A DNA stretch of 39,168 nucleotides from Candidatus Yanofskybacteria bacterium RIFCSPLOWO2_02_FULL_41_13 (GCA_001795735.1 MGKQ01000015.1:15070-54237); one strand, 5' to 3'; positions 3,178 to 26,182 are shown, numbered from the stretch's first letter. Notes: generated by a model from the sequence alone, not told the origin. Made by a program: numbers and translations.

Positions 3178-3807
3178 ATGATCAGCTTCTTAGAAGGTAC
3201 AATCGAACATTTGGGTGAAAAATACGTCGTTTTGAGCACCGGCGGTGTAGGCTATAAGGTAATAGTAGTCCCCAAGTTACTTAATATTTTATCAAAATCA
3301 ACCTTACCTGTCAAGGGTAGGGTTGATTTTGACCCTGAGCCTGTCGAAGGGCCAAGGGTACGGCTCTTTATACATTCGCAATTAAATATGCGGGAGGGGA
3401 CTTTTGATATGTATGGGTTTCAGAACAAAGAAGATCTGGAGTTGTTTCATCTCTTAACTACGGTTTCTGGTATAGGGCCAAAGGGCGCTATGAATGTCTT
3501 GTCTGTGGTTGAACCGAAACATCTTAAAGCGGCGGTAGTAAATGAGGATGCCGATTACTTAAAAAGAGTCTCTGGTCTTGGTCCAAAGACAGCTTCAAGA
3601 TTAATTCTCGAGCTTAAAAATAAAGTCGATCATATTGATATGGGCGATATGAAGGGTGTTGATTTGGGACAGGAGGGTCAGGCTACCGAAGCCTTGCTGG
3701 CCCTCGGCTATACCCAATATCAGGCTAAGGACGCCCTAAAAGAGGCAAAAGGTAAAACACTTGAAGAACGTGTTCGTGAAGCACTTCGTTTGCTTGGAAA
3801 AAGATGA
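3178..3807 (+). CDS. ruvA: Holliday junction DNA helicase subunit RuvA, with an in-frame repeat insertion
   Basis: RuvA binds four-way junctions as a tetramer and loads the RuvB motor. The 209 residues show the N-terminal OB domain (MISFLEGTIE...GVGYKV), two helix-hairpin-helix motifs (VSGIGPKGAMNVL about 96-108 and VSGLGPKTASRLI about 131-143) and the small C-terminal domain III (from about 170) that binds RuvB. Between residues about 39 and 59 the OB domain carries extra sequence including DFDPEPVEGP, encoded by a 17-bp inverted repeat plus the palindrome CCCTGAGCCTGTCGAAGGG. Ordinary RuvA goes more directly from the VP-x-L strand to VxLFxHxxxREd. The frame is kept, so the protein may tolerate it in a loop. 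The stop overlaps the next gene by 4 bp (ATGA). Confidence 0.95.
   Translation: MISFLEGTIEHLGEKYVVLSTGGVGYKVIVVPKLLNILSKSTLPVKGRVDFDPEPVEGPRVRLFIHSQLNMREGTFDMYGFQNKEDLELFHLLTTVSGIGPKGAMNVLSVVEPKHLKAAVVNEDADYLKRVSGLGPKTASRLILELKNKVDHIDMGDMKGVDLGQEGQATEALLALGYTQYQAKDALKEAKGKTLEERVREALRLLGKR
3292..3351. repeat. Palindromic repeat inserted in frame in ruvA
   Basis: Left arm TCAAAATCAACCTTACC (3292-3308) and right arm GGTAGGGTTGATTTTGA (3316-3332) are complementary over 17 positions with one G-T pair. Directly after comes the 19-bp palindrome CCCTGAGCCTGTCGAAGGG (3333-3351). A close reverse copy of the latter, CCCTTCGATAGACTCAGGG, lies at 26050-26068 inside repeat A4. Confidence 0.8.
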
Positions 3808-4730
3808 AATCATTTTTGCAGACAGAGGAGTGGTTAAGGTTTCAAGAGTCGGTTGGACAGAAAGTCTGGCGGTTTGATGATGGTAAGATAAGGGCCAATG
3901 TAATTAAATTAGGATTACCGCTGAGCAAGAGCATGCTGTATGTGCCACATGGGCCAGAAATAGATTTTGAGAATATCAAGAGCGGAATCAAGAACGAGCT
4001 TTCCAGTTTTATAAATTATTTAAAAAATTTAGCTCGACAGGAGAAATCTATATTTGTTAAAATTGAACCATCATCAGATTTAGTAATGGAACTTTTATAT
4101 AGAAGGGGATTTAAGCGCTCAAGTAAACAGATTCAGCCTTATCGGACAGTTGTAGTTGATCTTGGCTTGCCGGAGGAGCATCTGCTTGGCCGGATGCATC
4201 AAAAGACCAGATATAATATTAATCTTTCTGAGAAAAAAGGACTATCACTTGAAGAATCTGATGATGTGGAAGAATTCTGGAAACTACTGAAACAGACGGC
4301 AAAGAAAGACCGATTTTCGACCCATACGAAAGAATACTATAAAAAGCTAGTTAGTTTTTTTAGGGAAGGTGAATTAAGAGTAAAACTATTCTTCGTTAAA
4401 TATAAAAATAAATATATTGGAGGTGCAATTGTTATGATACATCATAACACAGCCTACTATCTTCATGGAGCGATGGATAGAGAATATAAGAATTTGATGG
4501 CGCCCTACTTTATGCACTGGGAGATTATTAAATTCCTTAAACTAATAACTAACAACTCACAACCTATAGATTGTTATGACTTTTGGGGCGTCGACGTCAA
4601 GAAATGGCCAGGCGTTACTCGCTTCAAGTTAGGCTGGGGCGGAGAACTCAAAGAGCTCACCGGCTCATTCGATTTACCAGTCTCTAGGGCTTGGTATTTG
4701 TTGTACTCGATAGCAAGAAAGATTTTTTAG
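3804..4730 (+). CDS. FemAB/GNAT-fold peptidoglycan bridge-forming aminoacyltransferase-like protein
   Basis: FemABX proteins transfer amino acids from aminoacyl-tRNA to the lipid II stem peptide. This 308-residue protein has the typical start SFLQTEEWLRFQESVG, a mid-protein basic segment KTRYNINLSEKKG (about 133-145, like the conserved K-x-R-x-N-I-x-x-A-x-K-x-G of the family), the second acyltransferase half with FVKYKNKYIGGAIV and YYLHGAMDREYKNLMAPYFMHWEII, and the C-terminal DFWGV...WPGVTRFKLGWGGE motif typical of FemAB-like proteins. No long coiled-coil arm is evident, so the tRNA-binding arm of classical FemA is short or missing. It is translationally coupled to ruvA by a 4-bp overlap. 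The donor amino acid cannot be told from sequence. Confidence 0.88.
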   Translation: MKSFLQTEEWLRFQESVGQKVWRFDDGKIRANVIKLGLPLSKSMLYVPHGPEIDFENIKSGIKNELSSFINYLKNLARQEKSIFVKIEPSSDLVMELLYRRGFKRSSKQIQPYRTVVVDLGLPEEHLLGRMHQKTRYNINLSEKKGLSLEESDDVEEFWKLLKQTAKKDRFSTHTKEYYKKLVSFFREGELRVKLFFVKYKNKYIGGAIVMIHHNTAYYLHGAMDREYKNLMAPYFMHWEIIKFLKLITNNSQPIDCYDFWGVDVKKWPGVTRFKLGWGGELKELTGSFDLPVSRAWYLLYSIARKIF

Positions 4731-4736
4731 TTTAAG

Positions 4737-4968
4737 AAGTCTCTTCCTATATTTCTTCATCACCTTCGCTTCATCGACAAATTAAAGATATTTATTCATT
4801 TTCCAGACATAAAATTGGGTCCCGCTCGTCAGTCCTATCGGACATATTGGTAGGAATCAATAATAAGATAAGACTCACTCCCAATTTTTGTCTTCTGAAA
4901 AATTTCAGAAATATATTTAATTTATACCGAAGAAGCTCAAACGGATTCAGAAATACAGGAAGAGACTT
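4737..4968. repeat. Family B fold-back element, copy B3 (diverged)
   Basis: Outer arms AAGTCTCTTCCTATATTTCT (4737-4756) and AGAAATACAGGAAGAGACTT (4949-4968) pair over 20 positions with one G-T pair. Nested inside are AAATTAAA/TTTAATTT and GACATAAAATTGGG/CCCAATTTTTGTC. The tip carries GGGTCCCGCTCG and CTCACTCCC, the same pieces found, in the reverse orientation, at the tip of B1 (18233-18275). It begins 7 bp after the FemAB-like gene. Confidence 0.7.
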
Positions 4969-5047
4969 CTTGTCGTGGACGATCGATTTTATAAAAAACA
5001 CGGTCTCTGAAAATAAAATAACGGGGCTTTTGCTTAGGTTGCTAGGA

Positions 5048-8876: not shown

Positions 8877-8911
8877 ATATTTCGCGAAGCGTATTTCAAT
8901 TCATTTCAGAA
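8877..8911. repeat. Family F repeat, copy F1
   Basis: A 35-bp stretch containing TTTCGCGAAGCGTATTTCAA, identical at 10157-10191. The surroundings (about 8864-8966) are rich in AAATACA/TGTATTT arms (TGTATTTCTAT ... ATAGAAATA), so the unit can fold on itself. Confidence 0.8.
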
Positions 8912-8980
8912 ATACAATAGAAATAAGATTGAAATACAGTAGAAATAGATTATTTCAGGCATCCTTTCGTTATTTTCTCT

Positions 8981-10156: not shown

Positions 10157-10191
10157 ATATTTCGCGAAGCGTATTTCAATTCATTTCAGAA
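10157..10191. repeat. Family F repeat, copy F2
   Basis: Exact 35-bp match to 8877-8911, with similar flanks (about 10147-10220) such as ACGTATTTTCATAT upstream and AGAAATACGGTGGAAATA downstream. It fills the gap between the presenilin-like and beta-CASP genes. Confidence 0.8.
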
Positions 10192-10244
10192 GTATACTAG
10201 AAATACGGTGGAAATAAATTGTTTTTGATATTCGAATTTCTAAT

Positions 10245-14875: not shown

Positions 14876-14985
14876 TCTGACTCGGACCACATTCAGTCGG
14901 CTCCAGCGGCCGACTGAATCTTAAGTACTCGGCAAAATTGCAGAACCAAGCCAATTTTGCCTGCACGTTTCCTTCCTAGAGATAA
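14876..14985. repeat. Family A fold-back element, copy A2, 3' of lon
   Basis: Read on the minus strand it matches A1 over the hairpin core (TTAAGATTCAGTCGGCCGCT...) and A3 over the adjoining hairpin GGCAAAATTGG...CAATTTTGCC and GGAAACG/AC-GCAGG segment. It starts about 15 bp after the lon stop. The outer TAGTCTCTGAGC arm of A1/A3 is shortened to TTCTCTGAC. Confidence 0.75.
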
Positions 14986-15130: not shown

Positions 15131-15728
15131 GTGGACAAGTATATAGATTGGCTGACCGGATTCGGATACCTAAGACTACAGTCTTGGCAGATGATGACTT
15201 TTTATTTAGTCCTAGCTTTTATTCTTTTGGGGGTAAGAGTTATAGCGTTTGCTAAATATATTTATCCTCACATTGTTAAAGAGAATGAAGTGAATAGGGC
15301 TATCCATGGTCAGGTAAGGTCGGACCTTAATCTGTTAGACAAGATCGGAATAATTTTATTTCTACTACTTGGATTTTCAGTAGGACCTTTTTTTTGAAGA
15401 AATTATATTTCGTGGTCCTATTCTCTGGTTTTTTCTCAAATCACAGTATTTATATACGCTCGTAGCTTTATTGGTCAGCTCTTTTGTTTTCATGCTCGCT
15501 CATTTATTGGAAACGAGGGGTAGATATGAGGATGGAACTTCTCGAACGTATACAAAACATGAGATTTACAATACCGGCTTAGGTGGTATTTTTTACGGAG
15601 TTATTGTAGTTACAACAGGTTCCTTGTGGCCGTCAATCTTTCTTCACATCATGTGGAACCTATTTGTAATGCTACCATTTATTAATAAAGATAAACTCAT
15701 TAAATTTTCAAAATCCTTGCAGCGGTAA
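15131..15728 (+). pseudogene. CPBP-family intramembrane metalloprotease, split by a frameshift in a T8 run
   Basis: Two frames together make one CPBP (Abi/CAAX protease) protein. The first, from GTG 15131 after GGGGGTAG, gives about 88 residues with two membrane segments and stops at 15395-15397. The second continues from GAA 15396 as EEIIFRGPILWFFL, followed by FMLAHLLE and FLHIMWNLF. These are the three CPBP motifs EExxxR, FxxxH and HxxxN, so all active-site residues lie after the break. The shift falls in CC-TTTTTTTT-GAAGAA (T at 15388-15395); with seven T the frame would read GPFFEEIIFRG without a break. This may be a true mutation, an assembly error, or expression rescued by polymerase slippage on the run. 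A consensus promoter and a terminator frame the pair. Confidence 0.85.
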
Positions 15729-15742
15729 TCCGCTGCTTTTTG
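15719..15742 (+). terminator. Rho-independent terminator of the CPBP gene
   Basis: CAGCGG-taat-CCGCTG followed by CTTTTTG; it overlaps the stop codon region of the second frame. Confidence 0.8.
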
Positions 15743-15758
15743 TTGGGAAAATAACTGA

Positions 15759-15968
15759 GCGAGCTTTTCTCTAATTTTTATCCTTCCACAGTCAAGGAGA
15801 TATGCGAGAACTAATATGAATTTATCCGATAATAATAGGTCGAACGCCCTGAGGCTCTAGCCGAAGGGAGGCAAGTGAGGGTACCTGTTATTATCGGCTA
15901 TAAATTCTTAATTAGTTTGAGTATATTGATGTAGACGAGGACTGGATAGAAATTAGAGAATAGCTCGC
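15759..15968. repeat. 210-bp nested fold-back element E
   Basis: Outer arms GCGAGCTTTTCTCTAATTTT (from 15759) and the complementary AAATTAGAGAATAGCTCGC (to 15968) continue inward as TATCC...CAGTC with GACTGGATA. Inner arms 15811-15840 (ACTAATATGAATTTATCCGA...) and 15883-15916 pair again. The loop holds CCCTGAGGCTCTAGCCGAAGGG, related to the CCCTGAG...CGAAGGG motif in ruvA and A4. The whole 15729-16021 gap is otherwise empty. Confidence 0.75.
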
Positions 15969-16021
15969 GATTGTGCATAATCTTTGTTGTTTTGTTTCTT
16001 AAAATACTCTAATCTTAACTA

Positions 16022-16558
16022 ATGGATTTTATTTCAGGTCTACTTAGCCAATTAGATTTTGATGTTATTGATCGGCTTTTGGTTGCCGCGCTTTTGGGCG
16101 GTATCGTCGGATTTGAGAGAGAAAGGTCAGGAAAAGTTGCTGGCCTGAGAACTCATATTCTAGTTTCTCTGGGAGCGGCTTTGGCCTCGGTTGTCTCTAT
16201 AAGGATTTTTGAGACATATCCTTCGGTGAACGGTGAATACGGATTTGATTACCATCTTATTGCCAACATTATTGTTGGTATCGGTTTTATCGGTGCCGGA
16301 ACGATATTAAGACGCGAGAATAGAATAGAAGGTACTACCACAGCCGCAAGCTTATGGGCGGTGGCTGTTGTTGGTATCGCGGCCGGCTTGGGTCTCTATC
16401 AGGAAGCCATTGCGACGACAGTTATTGTCTATATAGTTTTGGCTGGACTTTGGCTGGTTGAAAAATATCTGACCAGAGAGATGAGGTATCGTGGAGAAGG
16501 AATTTTTGGTGAACTTAAGGATGGAGTTCACCATACCGATGCTGATTCCGAAAAGTAA
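16022..16558 (+). CDS. MgtC/SapB-family membrane protein
   Basis: 178 residues. The N-terminal membrane domain has the family signature LLVAALLGGIVGFERERSGKVAGLRTHILVSLGAAL (about 19-54), then RIF...YHLIANIIVGIGFIGAGTILRRENRIEGTTTAASLWAVAVVGIAAGLG, ending with a short charged tail. MgtC proteins support growth at low magnesium or inside acidic compartments, in some species by acting on the F-type ATP synthase; here only the family is sure. The C-terminal ACT-like domain of Salmonella MgtC is missing, as in many short homologues. ATG 16022 is used; the permease gene follows 12 bp after the stop and is probably co-transcribed. Confidence 0.93.
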   Translation: MDFISGLLSQLDFDVIDRLLVAALLGGIVGFERERSGKVAGLRTHILVSLGAALASVVSIRIFETYPSVNGEYGFDYHLIANIIVGIGFIGAGTILRRENRIEGTTTAASLWAVAVVGIAAGLGLYQEAIATTVIVYIVLAGLWLVEKYLTREMRYRGEGIFGELKDGVHHTDADSEK

Positions 16559-18088: not shown

Positions 18089-18158
18089 AAAAGCGTAGCC
18101 TTATTTCTTTTCAGTCGGGGCAAGTAGTTAACTACAAAGTCGTCAGGCACTAAGCGAA

Positions 18159-18341
18159 TCCCTCCCCATTTTGCAGACCGTCTTTTTTCGAGGAGCACAC
18201 AATAGTTAAATTAGCTGATAATTTACGTTAATAACAAATTTGGGAGTGAGGGCTCGAGCGGGACCCAAATTTGTTAACTAAATTGAGGTTAATTTAACTA
18301 TTTGTCCGACGAAATAAAGTAGGTCGAAAAATGGGGAGGGA
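18159..18341. repeat. Family B fold-back element, copy B1
   Basis: Four nested arm pairs: TCCCTCCCCATTTT (18159-18172) with AAAATGGGGAGGGA (18328-18341); GACC with GGTC; AATAGTTAAATTA (18201-18213) with TAATTTAACTATT (18290-18302); AACAAATTTGGG (18233-18244) with CCCAAATTTGTT (18264-18275). The outer 3' arm contains GGGGAGGG, the likely SD of the gene starting at 18351. Copy B2 is the reverse-strand match at 21745-21970. Confidence 0.85.
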
Positions 18342-18350
18342 TGAGCTCCA

Positions 18351-19730
18351 ATGTTAAACAGACTCGAGCGATACATTTTTTATATCTTCTTATTCTCCAT
18401 TCCGTTTCAAGCCCGGAAAATTTTGTATTTTGAAGGGTGGAGATTTAATGAGTGGCAGTCGATAAGCGTCTATGCGACGGATGTATTGCTTGGCGTGCTT
18501 TTTTTATTCTGGCTGTTTGGCTATCTGGCACATCATAAATTTTCAATTTTCAATTTTCAATTTTCAATCAAATCTCAATTATCAATTTTCCAAAAACCGG
18601 ATTTTTATCTTATTTTATTTCTGATAATTTCAGCTATTTCTATCAAGAATTCCGATAGCTATTTAATTAGCTGGTTTCAGTGGATAAAGCTGGTCGAATT
18701 CTCGGTTTTCTATTGGTATCTATCACACTATGCTTTTAAAAAATTCGGTATTTTTAATTCTTTTACAGCCATCATGGCCGGCGGGCTTTTTCAGGCAGTT
18801 ATTGCGATTATTCAATTTTTAAAACAGTCCAGCATCGGCCTTAAATATTTTGGCGAGAGTATAGTCAATGTAGATCTCCCTGGCATTGCCTCTTTCTATT
18901 TACCGACTGGCGAAAAGATTATCCGTGCCTACGGGACAACACCTCATCCCAATGTTCTTGCCACCTTCTTTCTGGTATCAATCTTCTGTTTTTATTTCAT
19001 TTATTTTTATTCCCGTCTTCATTCTGAGCATGAACCTTTCGCTGATAATTGGGACAGGTTTTTCATTGTTTCTTATGCTGTAACTCTTTTTGCTTTTTTT
19101 ACCACATTTTCCCGGACGATAATTTTTATCTGGTTTTTCGCCTTCTGTCTCCGGTCAATTGTTGTCGGGCTGGTTAAGCACTATCGTGTAATTTTTGGGA
19201 CAAAAGAGGGTAGAGCCAGGATAAAAGTTATTTTAATAGCGAGTTTTGCGGTTATCGTTTTATTCGGCTCACTATACTATAACGAAATTATCAGCCGGCT
19301 GACCATAGATGGGGGAGATCAATCTGTCCAGTTGAGGTCTTTTTACTCAGAAGAAGCATTGAGCGGAAGCTTTAATTTTTTTGGTATTGGAATCGGTAAC
19401 TTTATAAATTGGCTCGTTGAAAGGAATCCATATCTATCGGCTTATGCTTATCAGCCGGTGCACAATATATTTTTATTGCTATATTCTGAAACCGGCATTT
19501 TGGGTCTTTCGGCTTTTATCGGATTTTTAGTTTTCTTATTAAAGGATTTTATAGTAGGTACAAAACTTAAGAAATCCTATCATTTTTCGCTTCTATTTCT
19601 TTTTATCTCAGTGATTTTTATAGGATTTTTTGATCATTTATTCCTTACTCTTCAGCAGGGGAGACTGGTTTTATGGCTGATTTTAGGTGTATTGACTTTT
19701 TACTCAAAAGGTGATACAATTAAAGAGTAA
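18351..19730 (+). CDS. O-antigen ligase/polymerase-like membrane protein (Wzy_C type)
   Basis: 459 residues with about ten to twelve membrane segments and one large outer loop (about 165-205) before the GTTPHPNVLATFFLVSIF helix, a pattern shared by the WaaL/Wzy_C family, which joins or polymerises surface sugars. FTTFSRTIIFIWFF and VHNIFLLLYSETGILGL are further family-like stretches. Residues about 63-81 (KFSIFNFQFSIKSQLSIFQ) are coded by TTTTCAA-type heptamers and look inserted into a loop. ATG 18351 follows GGGGAGGG at 10 nt; this SD sits in the outer stem of fold-back B1. Whether it acts on O-antigen, teichoic acid-like or protein-linked glycans is not known. Confidence 0.82.
   Translation: MLNRLERYIFYIFLFSIPFQARKILYFEGWRFNEWQSISVYATDVLLGVLFLFWLFGYLAHHKFSIFNFQFSIKSQLSIFQKPDFYLILFLIISAISIKNSDSYLISWFQWIKLVEFSVFYWYLSHYAFKKFGIFNSFTAIMAGGLFQAVIAIIQFLKQSSIGLKYFGESIVNVDLPGIASFYLPTGEKIIRAYGTTPHPNVLATFFLVSIFCFYFIYFYSRLHSEHEPFADNWDRFFIVSYAVTLFAFFTTFSRTIIFIWFFAFCLRSIVVGLVKHYRVIFGTKEGRARIKVILIASFAVIVLFGSLYYNEIISRLTIDGGDQSVQLRSFYSEEALSGSFNFFGIGIGNFINWLVERNPYLSAYAYQPVHNIFLLLYSETGILGLSAFIGFLVFLLKDFIVGTKLKKSYHFSLLFLFISVIFIGFFDHLFLTLQQGRLVLWLILGVLTFYSKGDTIKE
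18537..18596. repeat. AT heptamer run inside the O-antigen-ligase-like gene
   Basis: Four tandem TTTTCAA units (AATTTTCAATTTTCAATTTT...) followed by degenerate ones up to 18596. In frame; encodes alternating Phe/Ile/Asn/Gln residues. Same style as the AATTTCC run in murE and the run in polX. Confidence 0.75.
19692..19720 (+). promoter_or_regulatory. Promoter for the basic-protein gene, inside the upstream gene
   Basis: TTGACT (19692-19697), 17-bp spacer, TACAAT (19715-19720). It lies in the last codons of the O-antigen-ligase-like gene, 36 bp before ATG 19757. Confidence 0.75.
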
Positions 19731-19756
19731 GTTTGAATTTTAGAGGGGGGATGTTA

Positions 19757-20215
19757 ATGGAAAAGAAGCAGAAGAAAGACAAGAAGAAGGGTGCACCAGC
19801 GTCGGCTGGGTCTCGGAAAGGCCGGTGTGCGGCTTCTCAGGAAAGAGTGCCGGAGCGAAAGCTTCGGCGAGTGTACAAACTGCAAGGTCTGACTGGCGCC
19901 GAAGTGCACATCGATCAGGTGGGTGAAAGCATCCGTCGTCGGCAGGGACCGGAGACTGCCAATCTTCAGGTCATCATGCTTGAGGGTATTCTCAAGCGTC
20001 TCGAGGGGTCGGATCTGCCCAAGCGGCGTCGGGTGGCTCAAGAGCGTCGGCGCAATGCTCGAGATGTCCGTCGCACAGTTCGCTGTGCTCTTCGGGAGCA
20101 AAGGGCTCTTGCAGAGGCGAAGAAGGCCAAGCGGTCAACGGCGGCCAAGAAGGGCGCGGCAACCCGCAAGGCGAGGAAAGTAACCGCCCAAGCGGCGGTT
20201 GAGGCGAGCGTCTAG
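19757..20215 (+). CDS. Lys/Arg/Ala-rich basic protein, possibly nucleic-acid binding
   Basis: 152 residues from ATG 19757, placed 6 nt after the SD GAGGGGGG (an in-frame ATG at 19751 abuts the SD). The start (MEKKQKKDKKKGAPASAG) and end (AKKAKRSTAAKKGAATRKAR) are basic tails of the kind seen in histone H1-like and ribosome-associated proteins; the middle has RRVYKLQGLTGAEVHIDQVGES and an Arg-rich helix KRRRVAQERRRNARDVRRTV. No domain is recognised. Codon use is clearly GC-richer than in the neighbours (many CGT, CGG, GCG, GTC). It has its own consensus promoter and a very strong terminator, which suggests high expression. The DNA- or RNA-binding role is inferred from charge alone. Confidence 0.7.
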   Translation: MEKKQKKDKKKGAPASAGSRKGRCAASQERVPERKLRRVYKLQGLTGAEVHIDQVGESIRRRQGPETANLQVIMLEGILKRLEGSDLPKRRRVAQERRRNARDVRRTVRCALREQRALAEAKKAKRSTAAKKGAATRKARKVTAQAAVEASV

Positions 20216-20234
20216 TCCCATCGGGACTGGACAA

Positions 20235-20261
20235 GGGGGCGACTACGGTCGCCCCCTTTTT
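20235..20261 (+). terminator. Strong rho-independent terminator
   Basis: GGGGGCGAC-tacg-GTCGCCCCC followed by TTTTT, 20 bp after the stop of the basic-protein gene. Confidence 0.92.
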
Positions 20262-20280
20262 AATTACTTTTAAATGCGAT

Positions 20281-20910
20281 ATGCTTGATTTTGTTACTAT
20301 GGAAACTCAGCTTAAAGACAACAGAACAGAACTTCTTCGCAAGATTAAAAATGAGATCGTCGCCGGCAAACACTTACCGTTATACAAAGAACGGATTAAG
20401 AATAAAGTCTTTCCTGTGATAGGCGAAGGCAGTCATTATGCTAAAATTATGTTTGTCGGGGAGGCACCGGGTAAGAACGAGGCCGAGCAAGGCAGACCCT
20501 TCTGTGGAGCTTCAGGAAGGATTCTGGACGAACTGCTTGCCTCGGTCGGGATATTACGTCCGGATGTTTATGTGACTAACATAGTCAAAGATCGTCCGCC
20601 GATGAACCGCGACCCGTTACCCGAGGAAATAGAGGCTTATGTTCCATACCTCGATCGTCAGATAGAAATTATACAGCCTGAGATAATAGCTACTCTTGGC
20701 CGTTTCTCCATGATTTATATAATGAATAGGCTAGGCTTGGCTTCTCAGCTTGGATCGATCAGCCAAATTCACGGTAAAATATTTACGGCTCAGACAAAGT
20801 ATGGGGAAGTTAAAGTTATTCCATTATATCATCCGGCCGTGGCGGTGTATAATTCAAATATGAAAGACGGGCTACTTAAAGACTTCCAAACACTTAAGGT
20901 CTTTAAGTAA
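20281..20910 (+). CDS. Family 4-like uracil-DNA glycosylase without the Fe-S cysteines
   Basis: It removes uracil from DNA for base excision repair. Visible motifs: MFVGEAPGKNEAEQGRPFCGASGRILDELL (the active-site GEAPGxxE and GRPFxGxAG), VYVTNIVKDRPPMNRDP, and the C-terminal LYHPAVAVYN (HPA motif). 209 residues, usual length. Family 4 enzymes hold a 4Fe-4S cluster with four cysteines (N-terminal CxxC, KCRPP, and one about 16 residues later). Here these places read GKHLPL, KDRPP and EAYVPYL; the only cysteine is in GRPFC. So this form should be cluster-free. Start: ATG 20281, or ATG 20299, which is equally plausible; no SD for either. Confidence 0.88.
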   Translation: MLDFVTMETQLKDNRTELLRKIKNEIVAGKHLPLYKERIKNKVFPVIGEGSHYAKIMFVGEAPGKNEAEQGRPFCGASGRILDELLASVGILRPDVYVTNIVKDRPPMNRDPLPEEIEAYVPYLDRQIEIIQPEIIATLGRFSMIYIMNRLGLASQLGSISQIHGKIFTAQTKYGEVKVIPLYHPAVAVYNSNMKDGLLKDFQTLKVFK

Positions 20911-20985
20911 ATTCTAAATTACAATTTCCAAATCCCAAATAAATTCAAAATTCTAAAATCCAAAGTTTCAAACTGTCCATAATTT
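20910..20985. repeat. Degenerate AT heptamer tract between udg and dedA
   Basis: AAATTCTAAATTACAATTTCCAAATCCC... and following AAATTCAAAATTCTAAAATCC units; the same periodic style as in murE, polX and the O-antigen-ligase-like gene, here outside a gene. Shorter tracts lie at 17730-17770 and 23552-23580. Confidence 0.6.
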
Positions 20986-21045
20986 AATTGTGGGAGCTTA
21001 GACATTATTTATAGTTTGTTATTTGGTGATTGTTATTTATTTTAG

Positions 21046-21741
21046 ATGGAGCAAGTTTTCGATTTTGTACAAACTCATTTTCCCTTACTTATAGAACATA
21101 AGTATTTGTTTTTGTTTATCGGAGCGACGCTGGAAGGTTTAAGTGCGCTGGTTATAGGCGGTTTTTTGGTTTCGACTAATAGTGTTCAATTTTTGCCGGC
21201 TCTAGGGGTTTTTGCCCTTGGCCACACTCTTAACGGCTATATTTGGTATGCCGTCGGTTATTATACTGGCGCCAAGTCTCTTGATAAATGGGGGCGGAGC
21301 AAAGAAAAAAGCCGGAAAGTAATCGAAAAAGTTGAGCACTATTTTCATAAACACAGCGGTAAAGCTATTTTTATAACTAAATTCACTTTCTCCCTTACAA
21401 TTGCTACCCAAATTATGGCTGGCTCTTTAAAATACAATCTTAAAAAATACAGTTGGTATAATTTTTTAGGTTCAGCCTGCTGGGCAGTTTTTGCTATGTC
21501 AATAGGTTATTTCTTCGGCCAAAGCTACAAACTGTTCTTTGTCTATGTTGAAGATGTCGCTTATGGAGTCGCATTTCTGGGCGGAGCAATTGCCCTGATC
21601 TATATTCTAAAGTGGCTAATTAGAACGGCGTTTATTCAGACAATTATTATGCATGAAACCGTCAGGTATCTTAGTGATAAAATAAAAAACGGGATAGATA
21701 AAATTCTATCAAACGGCAATGGGGATAAAAAAGAATACTAG
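21046..21741 (+). CDS. DedA/VTT-family membrane protein
   Basis: 231 residues. The family core is present: the first re-entrant region FLFIGATLEGLSALVIGGFLVS (E30 or so at the G-A-x-x-E position), FALGHTLNGYIWYAVGYYTG, then an amphipathic KVEHYFHKHSGKAIFITKFTFSLTIATQIMAGSLKYNLKKYSWYNFLGSACWAV, which is the GxxxxxRFxPxxRxxxxxxAG region with K/T/S replacements for Arg. DedA/VTT proteins act in the cytoplasmic membrane as lipid scramblase-like carriers, e.g. for undecaprenyl phosphate. ATG 21046 is used; no SD. Repeats B2 and A3 fill the gap behind it. Confidence 0.9.
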   Translation: MEQVFDFVQTHFPLLIEHKYLFLFIGATLEGLSALVIGGFLVSTNSVQFLPALGVFALGHTLNGYIWYAVGYYTGAKSLDKWGRSKEKSRKVIEKVEHYFHKHSGKAIFITKFTFSLTIATQIMAGSLKYNLKKYSWYNFLGSACWAVFAMSIGYFFGQSYKLFFVYVEDVAYGVAFLGGAIALIYILKWLIRTAFIQTIIMHETVRYLSDKIKNGIDKILSNGNGDKKEY

Positions 21742-21744
21742 ATT

Positions 21745-21970
21745 AGCGAACCTACTTTTATTTTCTCGACCTACTTTCTTTCATCGGACAAATAGTTAAA
21801 TTAACCTCAACTTAGTTAACAAATTTGAGCCTCGTCGCTCGACATCTTTTTATACTAAAAAGATATCGGACTCCCCACTCAAATTTGTGGAATAACATAA
21901 ATTATCGGTTAATTTAACTATTGTGTATTCCTTGAAAAAAGACGGTCTGCGAAATGGGAAGGGGTTCGCT
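21745..21970. repeat. Family B fold-back element, copy B2 (inverted relative to B1)
   Basis: Inner arms AATAGTTAAATTA (21791-21803) and TAATTTAACTATT (21910-21922) are identical to those of B1. The outer arms are different but again complementary: AGCGAACC (21745-21752) and GGTTCGCT (21963-21970). The tip hairpin has another sequence (GAGCCTCGTCGCTCGACATC...GACTCCCCACTC). It starts 4 bp after the DedA stop. Confidence 0.85.
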
Positions 21971-21986
21971 TTTCGTCTATTTTTAA

Positions 21987-22170
21987 GCTCAGAGACTGTA
22001 CCCTAGGGAGGAAACACGCAGGCAAAATTGGCTTGGTTCTGCAATTTTGCCGAGTACTTAAGATTCGGTTTTTGCTGGATTAAGGCGAAGGTTTTAGAAG
22101 CGTGCTTTAGCCGCTTCTGGAATCGCCTCAGAAACCGAATGTGGTCCGAGTCTGGATTTAGTCTCTGAGC
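21987..22170. repeat. Family A fold-back element, copy A3 (184 bp, with terminal inverted repeats)
   Basis: The ends GCTCAGAGACT (21987-21997) and AGTCTCTGAGC (22160-22170) are a perfect 11-bp inverted pair. Inside are the hairpin GGCAAAATTGG/CAATTTTGCC shared with A2, and a longer arm GATTCGGTTT...AAACCGAATG enclosing AGGCGA/TCGCCT and AGAAGCG/CGCTTCT. No coding frame lies within. Confidence 0.85.
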
Positions 22171-22201
22171 AAGGCCCATAGTAGGTAGGTGTGGATAATT
22201 G

Positions 22202-25930: not shown

Positions 25931-25935
25931 GTTAC

Positions 25936-26182
25936 TTAGAGACTATACCCAGACTCGGATTTTAACTCGTAACAGATTATTACCCTTCAGGACACTCTCA
26001 TGGCCCCAGCGAGGCCATTTCACTAAGTGAAGCTGCCGATTTTGTAAAGCCCTTCGATAGACTCAGGGCGTTGACAAACCATGCAATCTGGCCTCACTTC
26101 GCCGGAGCTTCGCGAGGCGAGCAACTTCAATTGTCCCGAGAAGGTAATAATCTGTTGCTCGTAGGATAGTATAGTCTCTGAG
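25936..26182. repeat. Family A-related fold-back element, copy A4 (long form), 3' of polX
   Basis: End arms AGAGACTATAC (25938-25948) and GTATAGTCTCT (26169-26179) are perfect complements. The CCCAGACTCGGA next to the left end matches the A1/A3 tail (TCCGAGTCTGG) in reverse. Inner arms AACAGATTATTACC (25971-25984) and GGTAATAATCTGTT (26143-26156) are perfect. The core has ATGGCCccagcgaGGCCAT and CCCTTCGATAGACTCAGGG (26050-26068). It starts 5 bp after the polX stop and accounts for most of the gap. Confidence 0.8.

Follow-up and report, generated by a model that had tools for sequence, protein, structure and literature searches.

The window, that is the whole stretch of 39,168 nucleotides that was analysed, comes from Candidatus Yanofskybacteria bacterium RIFCSPLOWO2_02_FULL_41_13 (G000:C15:15070-54237, in a genome of 1.02 Mb and 26 contigs). 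It carries three fold-back elements, B1, B2 and B3, and two of them lie immediately behind genes: the 3' end of B2 is found 2-4 nt past the TAG stop of a plus-strand gene (21046-21741) and that of B3 4 nt past the TAG stop of another plus-strand gene (3804-4730). The plus strand of B1 was defined as the sense strand, and copies were scored with a covariance model, R1, built from 28 core sequences. The features of the window are listed below.

4734..4971, minus strand (sense = minus): B3, a sister (B3-type) element; inverted repeat I6, fold z -7.8
15780..15942, minus strand: weak R1 match (E 0.005) within another long hairpin, membership not claimed
18153..18347, plus strand: B1, full element in sense orientation (outer arms, core arms, head); fold z -8.9
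18153..18172, plus strand: B1 5' outer arm AGCGAATCCCTCCCCATTTT, inverted repeat I15
18201..18213, plus strand: B1 5' inner arm AATAGTTAAATTA, from the sequence; its partner in the fold is 18290-18302
18240..18268, plus strand: B1 head (tip) module, type 1, TTGGGAGTGAGGGCTCGAGCGGGACCCAA, common to B3-type copies
18290..18302, plus strand: B1 3' inner arm TAATTTAACTATT, from sequence and fold
18328..18347, plus strand: B1 3' outer arm AAAATGGGGAGGGATGAGCT, inverted repeat I15
21744..21971, minus strand (sense = minus): B2, full element; fold z -9.2, R1 142.6 bits, ORF list

The three fold-backs noticed in a preliminary description of this DNA are genuine. Upon DNA folding B1, B2 and B3 each form a single long rod, with z-scores of -8.9, -9.2 and -7.8 respectively that were equalled by 0 of 200 shuffles in each case. 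B1 and B2 are, as described, diverged copies that lie on opposite strands; their inner arms (AATAGTTAAATTA/TAATTTAACTATT) are identical, and their halves are inverted repeats of 79 and 73 nt with an 89-90% match. B1 scored 131 bits against R1 (E 4e-29) and was the best BLASTN match to itself and to the family. The preliminary description also reported an outer stem exchanged on both sides between B1 and B2 with pairing kept; this exchange is absent, the change being one-sided and restricted to the 3' arm of B2. Read in sense orientation, B1 and B2 hardly differ in the 5' outer arm (AAGCGAATCCCTCCCCATTTTGCAGACC in B1 and AAGCGAACCCCTTCCCATTTCGCAGACC in B2, also given as AAGCGAATCCCTCCCC and AAGCGAACCCCTTCCC), whereas the 3' outer arms differ (GAAAAATGGGGAGGGATGAGCT in B1 vs GAGAAAATAAAAGTAGGTTCGCT in B2). 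The B1 outer arm pairs in its middle, and its arms form a self-duplex of -27.5 kcal/mol compared to a cross mean of -17.3. The B2 outer stem is paired over its last 8 bases only (AGCGAACC/GGTTCGCT) and is mostly unpaired; at -9.9 kcal/mol its 20-nt outer arms rank 34 of 43, which puts this stem among the most poorly paired in the family. B3, initially counted as a third copy, does share the tip, but its arms are different and it is a distant sister, recognized by R1 at 4766-4937 with 34.9 bits (E = 1e-5).

These hairpin repeats are a real family of structured, apparently mobile fold-backs in Ca. Yanofskybacteria, a family of tiny uncultured Patescibacteria, and the repeat is not limited to three copies: BLASTN with B1 as a query retrieved about 12 places in its own genome alone, together with copies in 8 relatives. 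R1 detected about 46 full B copies, about 10 per genome and about 180-300 nt long, in 9 of the 28 family genomes (genera g1, g5, g8 and g10). The B3-type sister group comprises at least 11 copies (B3 of the window, L021, L029, L071, L086 and L198-L203). R1 gives these copies low scores or misses them (those listed had E values of about 1e-5 to 1e-7), and the head served to assign L021 and the B3-type copy of L029. One weak relative of the element was found in G031, a genome of another family of the same order, and R1 run with stricter filters on 286 genomes drawn from the class revealed nothing beyond Yanofskybacteria and G031. The covariance-model search that had been suggested at the outset confines the copies to one order, namely Yanofskybacteria and this one relative. 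Presence is patchy even within a genus, with zero copies in G020 while G010 and G025 carry some. Rfam covariance models gave 0 matches in the window, and 0 for B1 at E up to 5; phage and plasmid records contained no match to the element. Pattern matches in viral contigs and in non-Yanofskybacteria genomes were attributed to chance, with no model match. An open-literature search brought up no description of the element, an absence that is not proof of novelty. The hairpin element is previously uncatalogued and is of the intergenic palindromic repeat/MITE kind.

The whole element is an imperfect inverted repeat, so that terminal inverted repeats are present. Its outer arms follow approximately AGCGAAnCCCCnCCCATTT ... 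AAATGGGnGGGGTTGAGCG, often altered, and are succeeded inward by CAGACCG... Core arms read AACACAAT-GCTTAAATTA or AGTTAAATTA, among others, each with a correspondingly changed partner. Nearly all copies keep unequal internal loops and one bulged base, which follows ACA and is C or T in 45 of the 46 copies. About three types of head are found at the tip (GGGAGTGAG..GAGCGGGACCC, GAGTGGGGAGTC..GCGACGAGGCTC and AGCCGGAAAA..AACGGATGCT), often containing a further hairpin, and the same types top B and B3-type arms alike. Small hairpins are inserted in the 3' side of some copies.

Among 24 full copies, double compensatory changes were observed at 34 of 68 pairs. The covariation score was 0.333, compared to 0.167 ± 0.008 for shuffled controls (0/500) and at most 0.097 when partners were slid, values to be read with the caution that the structure was derived from the same sequences and that related copies are not independent. 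The mean pairing energy of the outer arms was -22.7 kcal/mol within a copy, compared to -14.6 with the arms of other copies, and 0 of 5000 permutations passed -16.9 kcal/mol. The earlier proposal that structure is kept despite changed bases therefore stands at the level of the family, but not on the B1/B2 example from which it was drawn. Unpaired outer arms, considered beforehand as evidence to the contrary, are in fact seen in a minority of copies (B2, L035, L078 and L083). Inverted duplication, the third option put forward in the preliminary description, may apply to the outer arms, whose turnover is much faster than that of the core.

Since arms were aligned by Watson-Crick identity only, both strands were treated alike in a comparison of mismatches. 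G-T outnumbered A-C in the B cores (64 vs 26; 27 copies vs 4), in the outer arms (36 vs 10) and in B3-type copies (23 vs 14). This excess on one strand only indicates that the constrained strand is the sense strand and points to it as the pairing strand, in the form of either RNA or single-stranded DNA. Part of the G-T excess could reflect mutation that is biased between strands.

Place and orientation are also preferred. According to simple ORF calls, 32 of 46 copies have a convergent gene as their nearest neighbour on the 3' side, and left and right neighbours lie on the minus strand in 32/46 each, so that the sense strand is in most cases antisense to the genes around it. A convergent stop codon is located within 15 nt of the element 3' end in 18/46 copies; when inner inserts are allowed for, about 6 more copies have a stop at their 3' end, giving about 18-24 of 46. 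The mirror arrangement, with a stop at the element 5' end, was found in none of the 46 copies. B2, B3 and most B3-type copies share the same placement of the stop codon. Some gene ends carry a copy in two or more genera, with cores grouping mostly by genome; they include those after what we take to be the DedA-like gene of B2 and a YraN-like gene. Hot spots and gene conversion between resident copies are both possible explanations for such loci.

Near-identical cores stand in unrelated flanks, and relatives lack the element at some comparable loci. A stretch of 267 nt is identical between L097 and L098, whose flanks are unrelated; because these copies differ in the 3' outer arm, gene conversion among resident copies may account for part of the apparent movement. 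The locus of L096 measures 33 bp in G012 vs about 713 bp, including the element, in G021, and in G020 only about 50 bp separate the flanks of the L101 locus, where the element is missing; where occupied, both loci also hold other inserts. No target-site duplication was seen by eye at L097/L098, and the intergenic DNA of relatives was too diverged to align. A non-exhaustive survey of model matches in the 28 family genomes did not reveal a long version that could represent a parental transposon.

Candidate partner enzymes were searched in the same genomes. Y1 transposase genes occur in 7 of 9 carrier genomes and in 8 of 19 non-carriers, and neither a copy nor a head motif was found beside 16 Y1 loci. 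Reverse transcriptase (PF00078) occurs in 20/28 family genomes and is not specific; it is absent from G003, a genome that carries a copy and has neither Y1 nor reverse transcriptase matches. For the integron integrase model TIGR02249, 0 of 28 genomes exceeded the cut-off, the only matches being Xer-like and far below it.

For this family, with its directly observed structure, covariation, strand bias, and preferred place and orientation, the explanation that we favour is that B1, B2 and B3 are a non-autonomous, rod-shaped mobile hairpin element, copied as a single strand by a putative trans-acting enzyme, a reading to which we give an even chance. The rod is built in three parts: a core hairpin whose internal loops are conserved, a head at its tip and, on the outside, arms of about 20 bp that change fast. 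One specific strand would fold while single-stranded. A putative cell enzyme acting in trans would then recognize head and core, and would copy or insert the element at gene ends, directly past the stop codon and antisense to the gene. We infer that recognition for movement is the step under selection, that the substrate is single-stranded and that the enzyme is provided in trans.

The massive covariation, the conserved internal loops and head, and the tolerance of G-U on the sense strand only would also be expected from a dispersed structured non-coding RNA, in which the sense strand is transcribed and rod and head act as a cellular RNA; in a variant of this proposal, the rod is the RNA intermediate of a retro-element. 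We regard such an RNA as rather unlikely. It has no Rfam match, its strand is usually antisense to the flanking genes (32/46 on each side), and a single-stranded DNA hairpin fits the same data. Moreover, flanks outside the element are not conserved, so the promoter of any sense RNA would lie inside it, and the patchy distribution among close relatives makes an essential RNA less likely. The position of copies directly after stop codons could also indicate a gene-end device of the host, a terminator or 3' UTR stabiliser whose paired outer stems end transcripts; the outermost stem is GC-rich in many copies, a stretch mildly enriched in T comes after it in the direction of the gene, and just upstream of the element the sense strand has A at 0.32-0.57 vs 0.28. 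However, G-T becomes A-C on the mRNA strand, which places the constraint on the other strand. As most neighbours are transcribed in the opposite direction to the element, their mRNA contains the strand with the lower tolerance of mismatches, an argument against a function within host messages. A terminator scan detected no canonical terminator at the B2 outer stem, the genes beside L093 and L096 retain their own terminators and same-genus genomes manage without the element, which makes a gene-end device quite improbable. Integron-like (attC-like) recombination sites, which are folded, variable, located after stops and recombined through the strand antisense to the gene, share the post-stop position, the antisense-strand constraint and the variable tip, and the frequent 3' end GTTGAGC fits GTTRRRY. 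But the 5' end AGCGAAAC does not fit RYYYAAC, the length of 185-290 nt is at odds with such sites, copies are solitary beside ordinary chromosomal genes rather than in cassette arrays, and the lack of an integron integrase over the cut-off in 28 genomes largely refutes this proposal, which we consider highly improbable.

The turnover of the outer arms raises another alternative, namely that changed but paired arms result from mutation or recombination instead of selection, by hairpin-templated correction, by gene conversion of cores between resident copies, or by paired replacement of the arms at insertion (when the element enters the loop of a hairpin already there, or through inverted copying of the flank). 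The cores of L007 and L093 are about 95-98% identical, yet most of the outer-arm sequence differs between them while remaining self-complementary in each (19/21 and 21/21). Between L097 and L098 the 5' arm and the core are identical and only the 3' arm differs; it complements the 5' arm almost perfectly in L097 but not in L098. More generally, copies with 90-95% core identity have arms only 65-68% identical, near background. Stepwise compensation does not easily explain this paired turnover, which would follow more readily from templated correction, from replacement of the arms on insertion, or from conversion of cores beneath older arms; the grouping of cores mostly by genome at orthologous loci is also favourable. 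We nevertheless consider an origin without selection unlikely for the outer arms. Inner-arm pairs covary too, yet bulges and unequal loops persist in nearly all copies, which argues against templated correction since it would erase them. Sharing a locus hardly increases the similarity of outer arms, orthologous sites lying only 0.04 above expectation, and vertical locus-by-locus inheritance of the arms was rejected. When relatives' sequence was scanned loosely for AGCGAAACCCC-type outer hairpins left unfilled, there were random matches and no clear case, and the arms bear no resemblance to the old downstream DNA at comparable loci, as judged from three alignable B3-type sites; they were discarded as copies of the old target flank.

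A modular version of the mobile rod, whose movement itself builds or exchanges the outer arms as complementary pairs, is conceivable, although we hold it doubtful. The element might insert into hairpin loops, for example, or one arm might be re-copied from the other, possibly through a folded single-strand intermediate, and nested head, core and arm modules might be shuffled between subfamilies. The rapid turnover of the outer arms in pairs is a warning that 'compensatory change' in dispersed palindromes can stem from arm replacement, and should not be read automatically as selection on an RNA. Patescibacteria have small genomes, and yet many structured fold-back repeats are found here right behind genes. 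If the rod is indeed moved as a folded single strand, it would offer a natural system in which to ask how the shape of a hairpin, as opposed to its sequence, is recognized during mobility.

Among known systems, REP/REPIN sequences with their RAYT (Y1) transposases (PMC2817692, PMC3116915, PMC3733652) are likewise intergenic, palindromic, dispersed and non-autonomous, and Y1 genes occur in most carriers of the Yanofskybacteria element. In contrast to REP hairpins of 20-40 bp, usually present in more than 100 copies and bearing a GTAG or CGTC tag, the rods measure 185-290 nt, number about 10 per genome, have no constant end tag and do not flank a Y1 gene, and they bear a head module and fast-changing paired outer arms. 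Bacterial MITEs and ERIC-like palindromes (PMC10969869) are also short, non-autonomous, imperfect, intergenic and patchy in relatives. The rods differ from MITEs by their conserved internal loops, strand-specific pairing constraint, whole-length covariation and fixed orientation at stop codons, and neither a target-site duplication nor a parental transposon was found for them. Covariation evidence of the same kind underlies structured RNA candidates (e.g. PMC2864571), whereas the rods are dispersed at unrelated loci, look mobile and have no Rfam match. With integron attC sites they have in common a folded form, a post-stop position, variable sequence with kept pairing and an antisense-strand constraint, but they are longer and lack an integrase, arrays and a 5' box. 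The element fails the tested defining features of REP and attC, and is most like a REP/MITE-type hairpin that follows the placement logic of attC.

A second repeat family in the window has the form GAGACTATACCC...GACTCGGACC, with a complementarity between the arms of up to 100%. At three of its four places it lies directly 3' of the neighbouring gene's stop codon, and one of the four comes after B2, a window copy of the rod-shaped family B hairpin. The window also holds another long hairpin, of a kind found in genome G012 as well, and an intergenic direct repeat:

1015-1085, second repeat family
14879-14979, second repeat family
22003-22172, second repeat family
25932-25959, second repeat family
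15700-16022, long hairpin with head ATAACAGGTACCC...GACCTATTAT, weakly matched by R1, the covariance model built from 28 B core sequences
8877-8936 and 10157-10216, direct repeat of 60 nt, 90% identical, between genes

The 3' side of B elements holds nested small palindromes of two kinds, CGCGCTCCGCCGAAGGCTTCGGCG... and AAGGCGAAGGTTTTAGGAGCG..., listed for copies L095, L093 and L013 of the source genome (G000) and L033 of G003; the AAGGCGAAGGTTTTAGGAGCG... kind is present at window 22083-22131 too. In G003, the loci orthologous to L007 and L093 (L275 and L277) carry composites in which a B-like 3' end is fused to a family-A-like repeat, and the genes that these composites follow are once more the same. 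About 11 nt upstream of the ATG at 18351 lies the G-rich 3' arm of copy B1, GGGGAGGG (window 18333-18353), which could serve as a Shine-Dalgarno sequence.

Xer-like recombinase matches were split inside one open frame in G000 (contig C17, 5094-7193, ~735 aa) and G027 (contig C7, 32396-34495, ~731 aa); the gene looks as though it were interrupted by an insert about the size of an intein.
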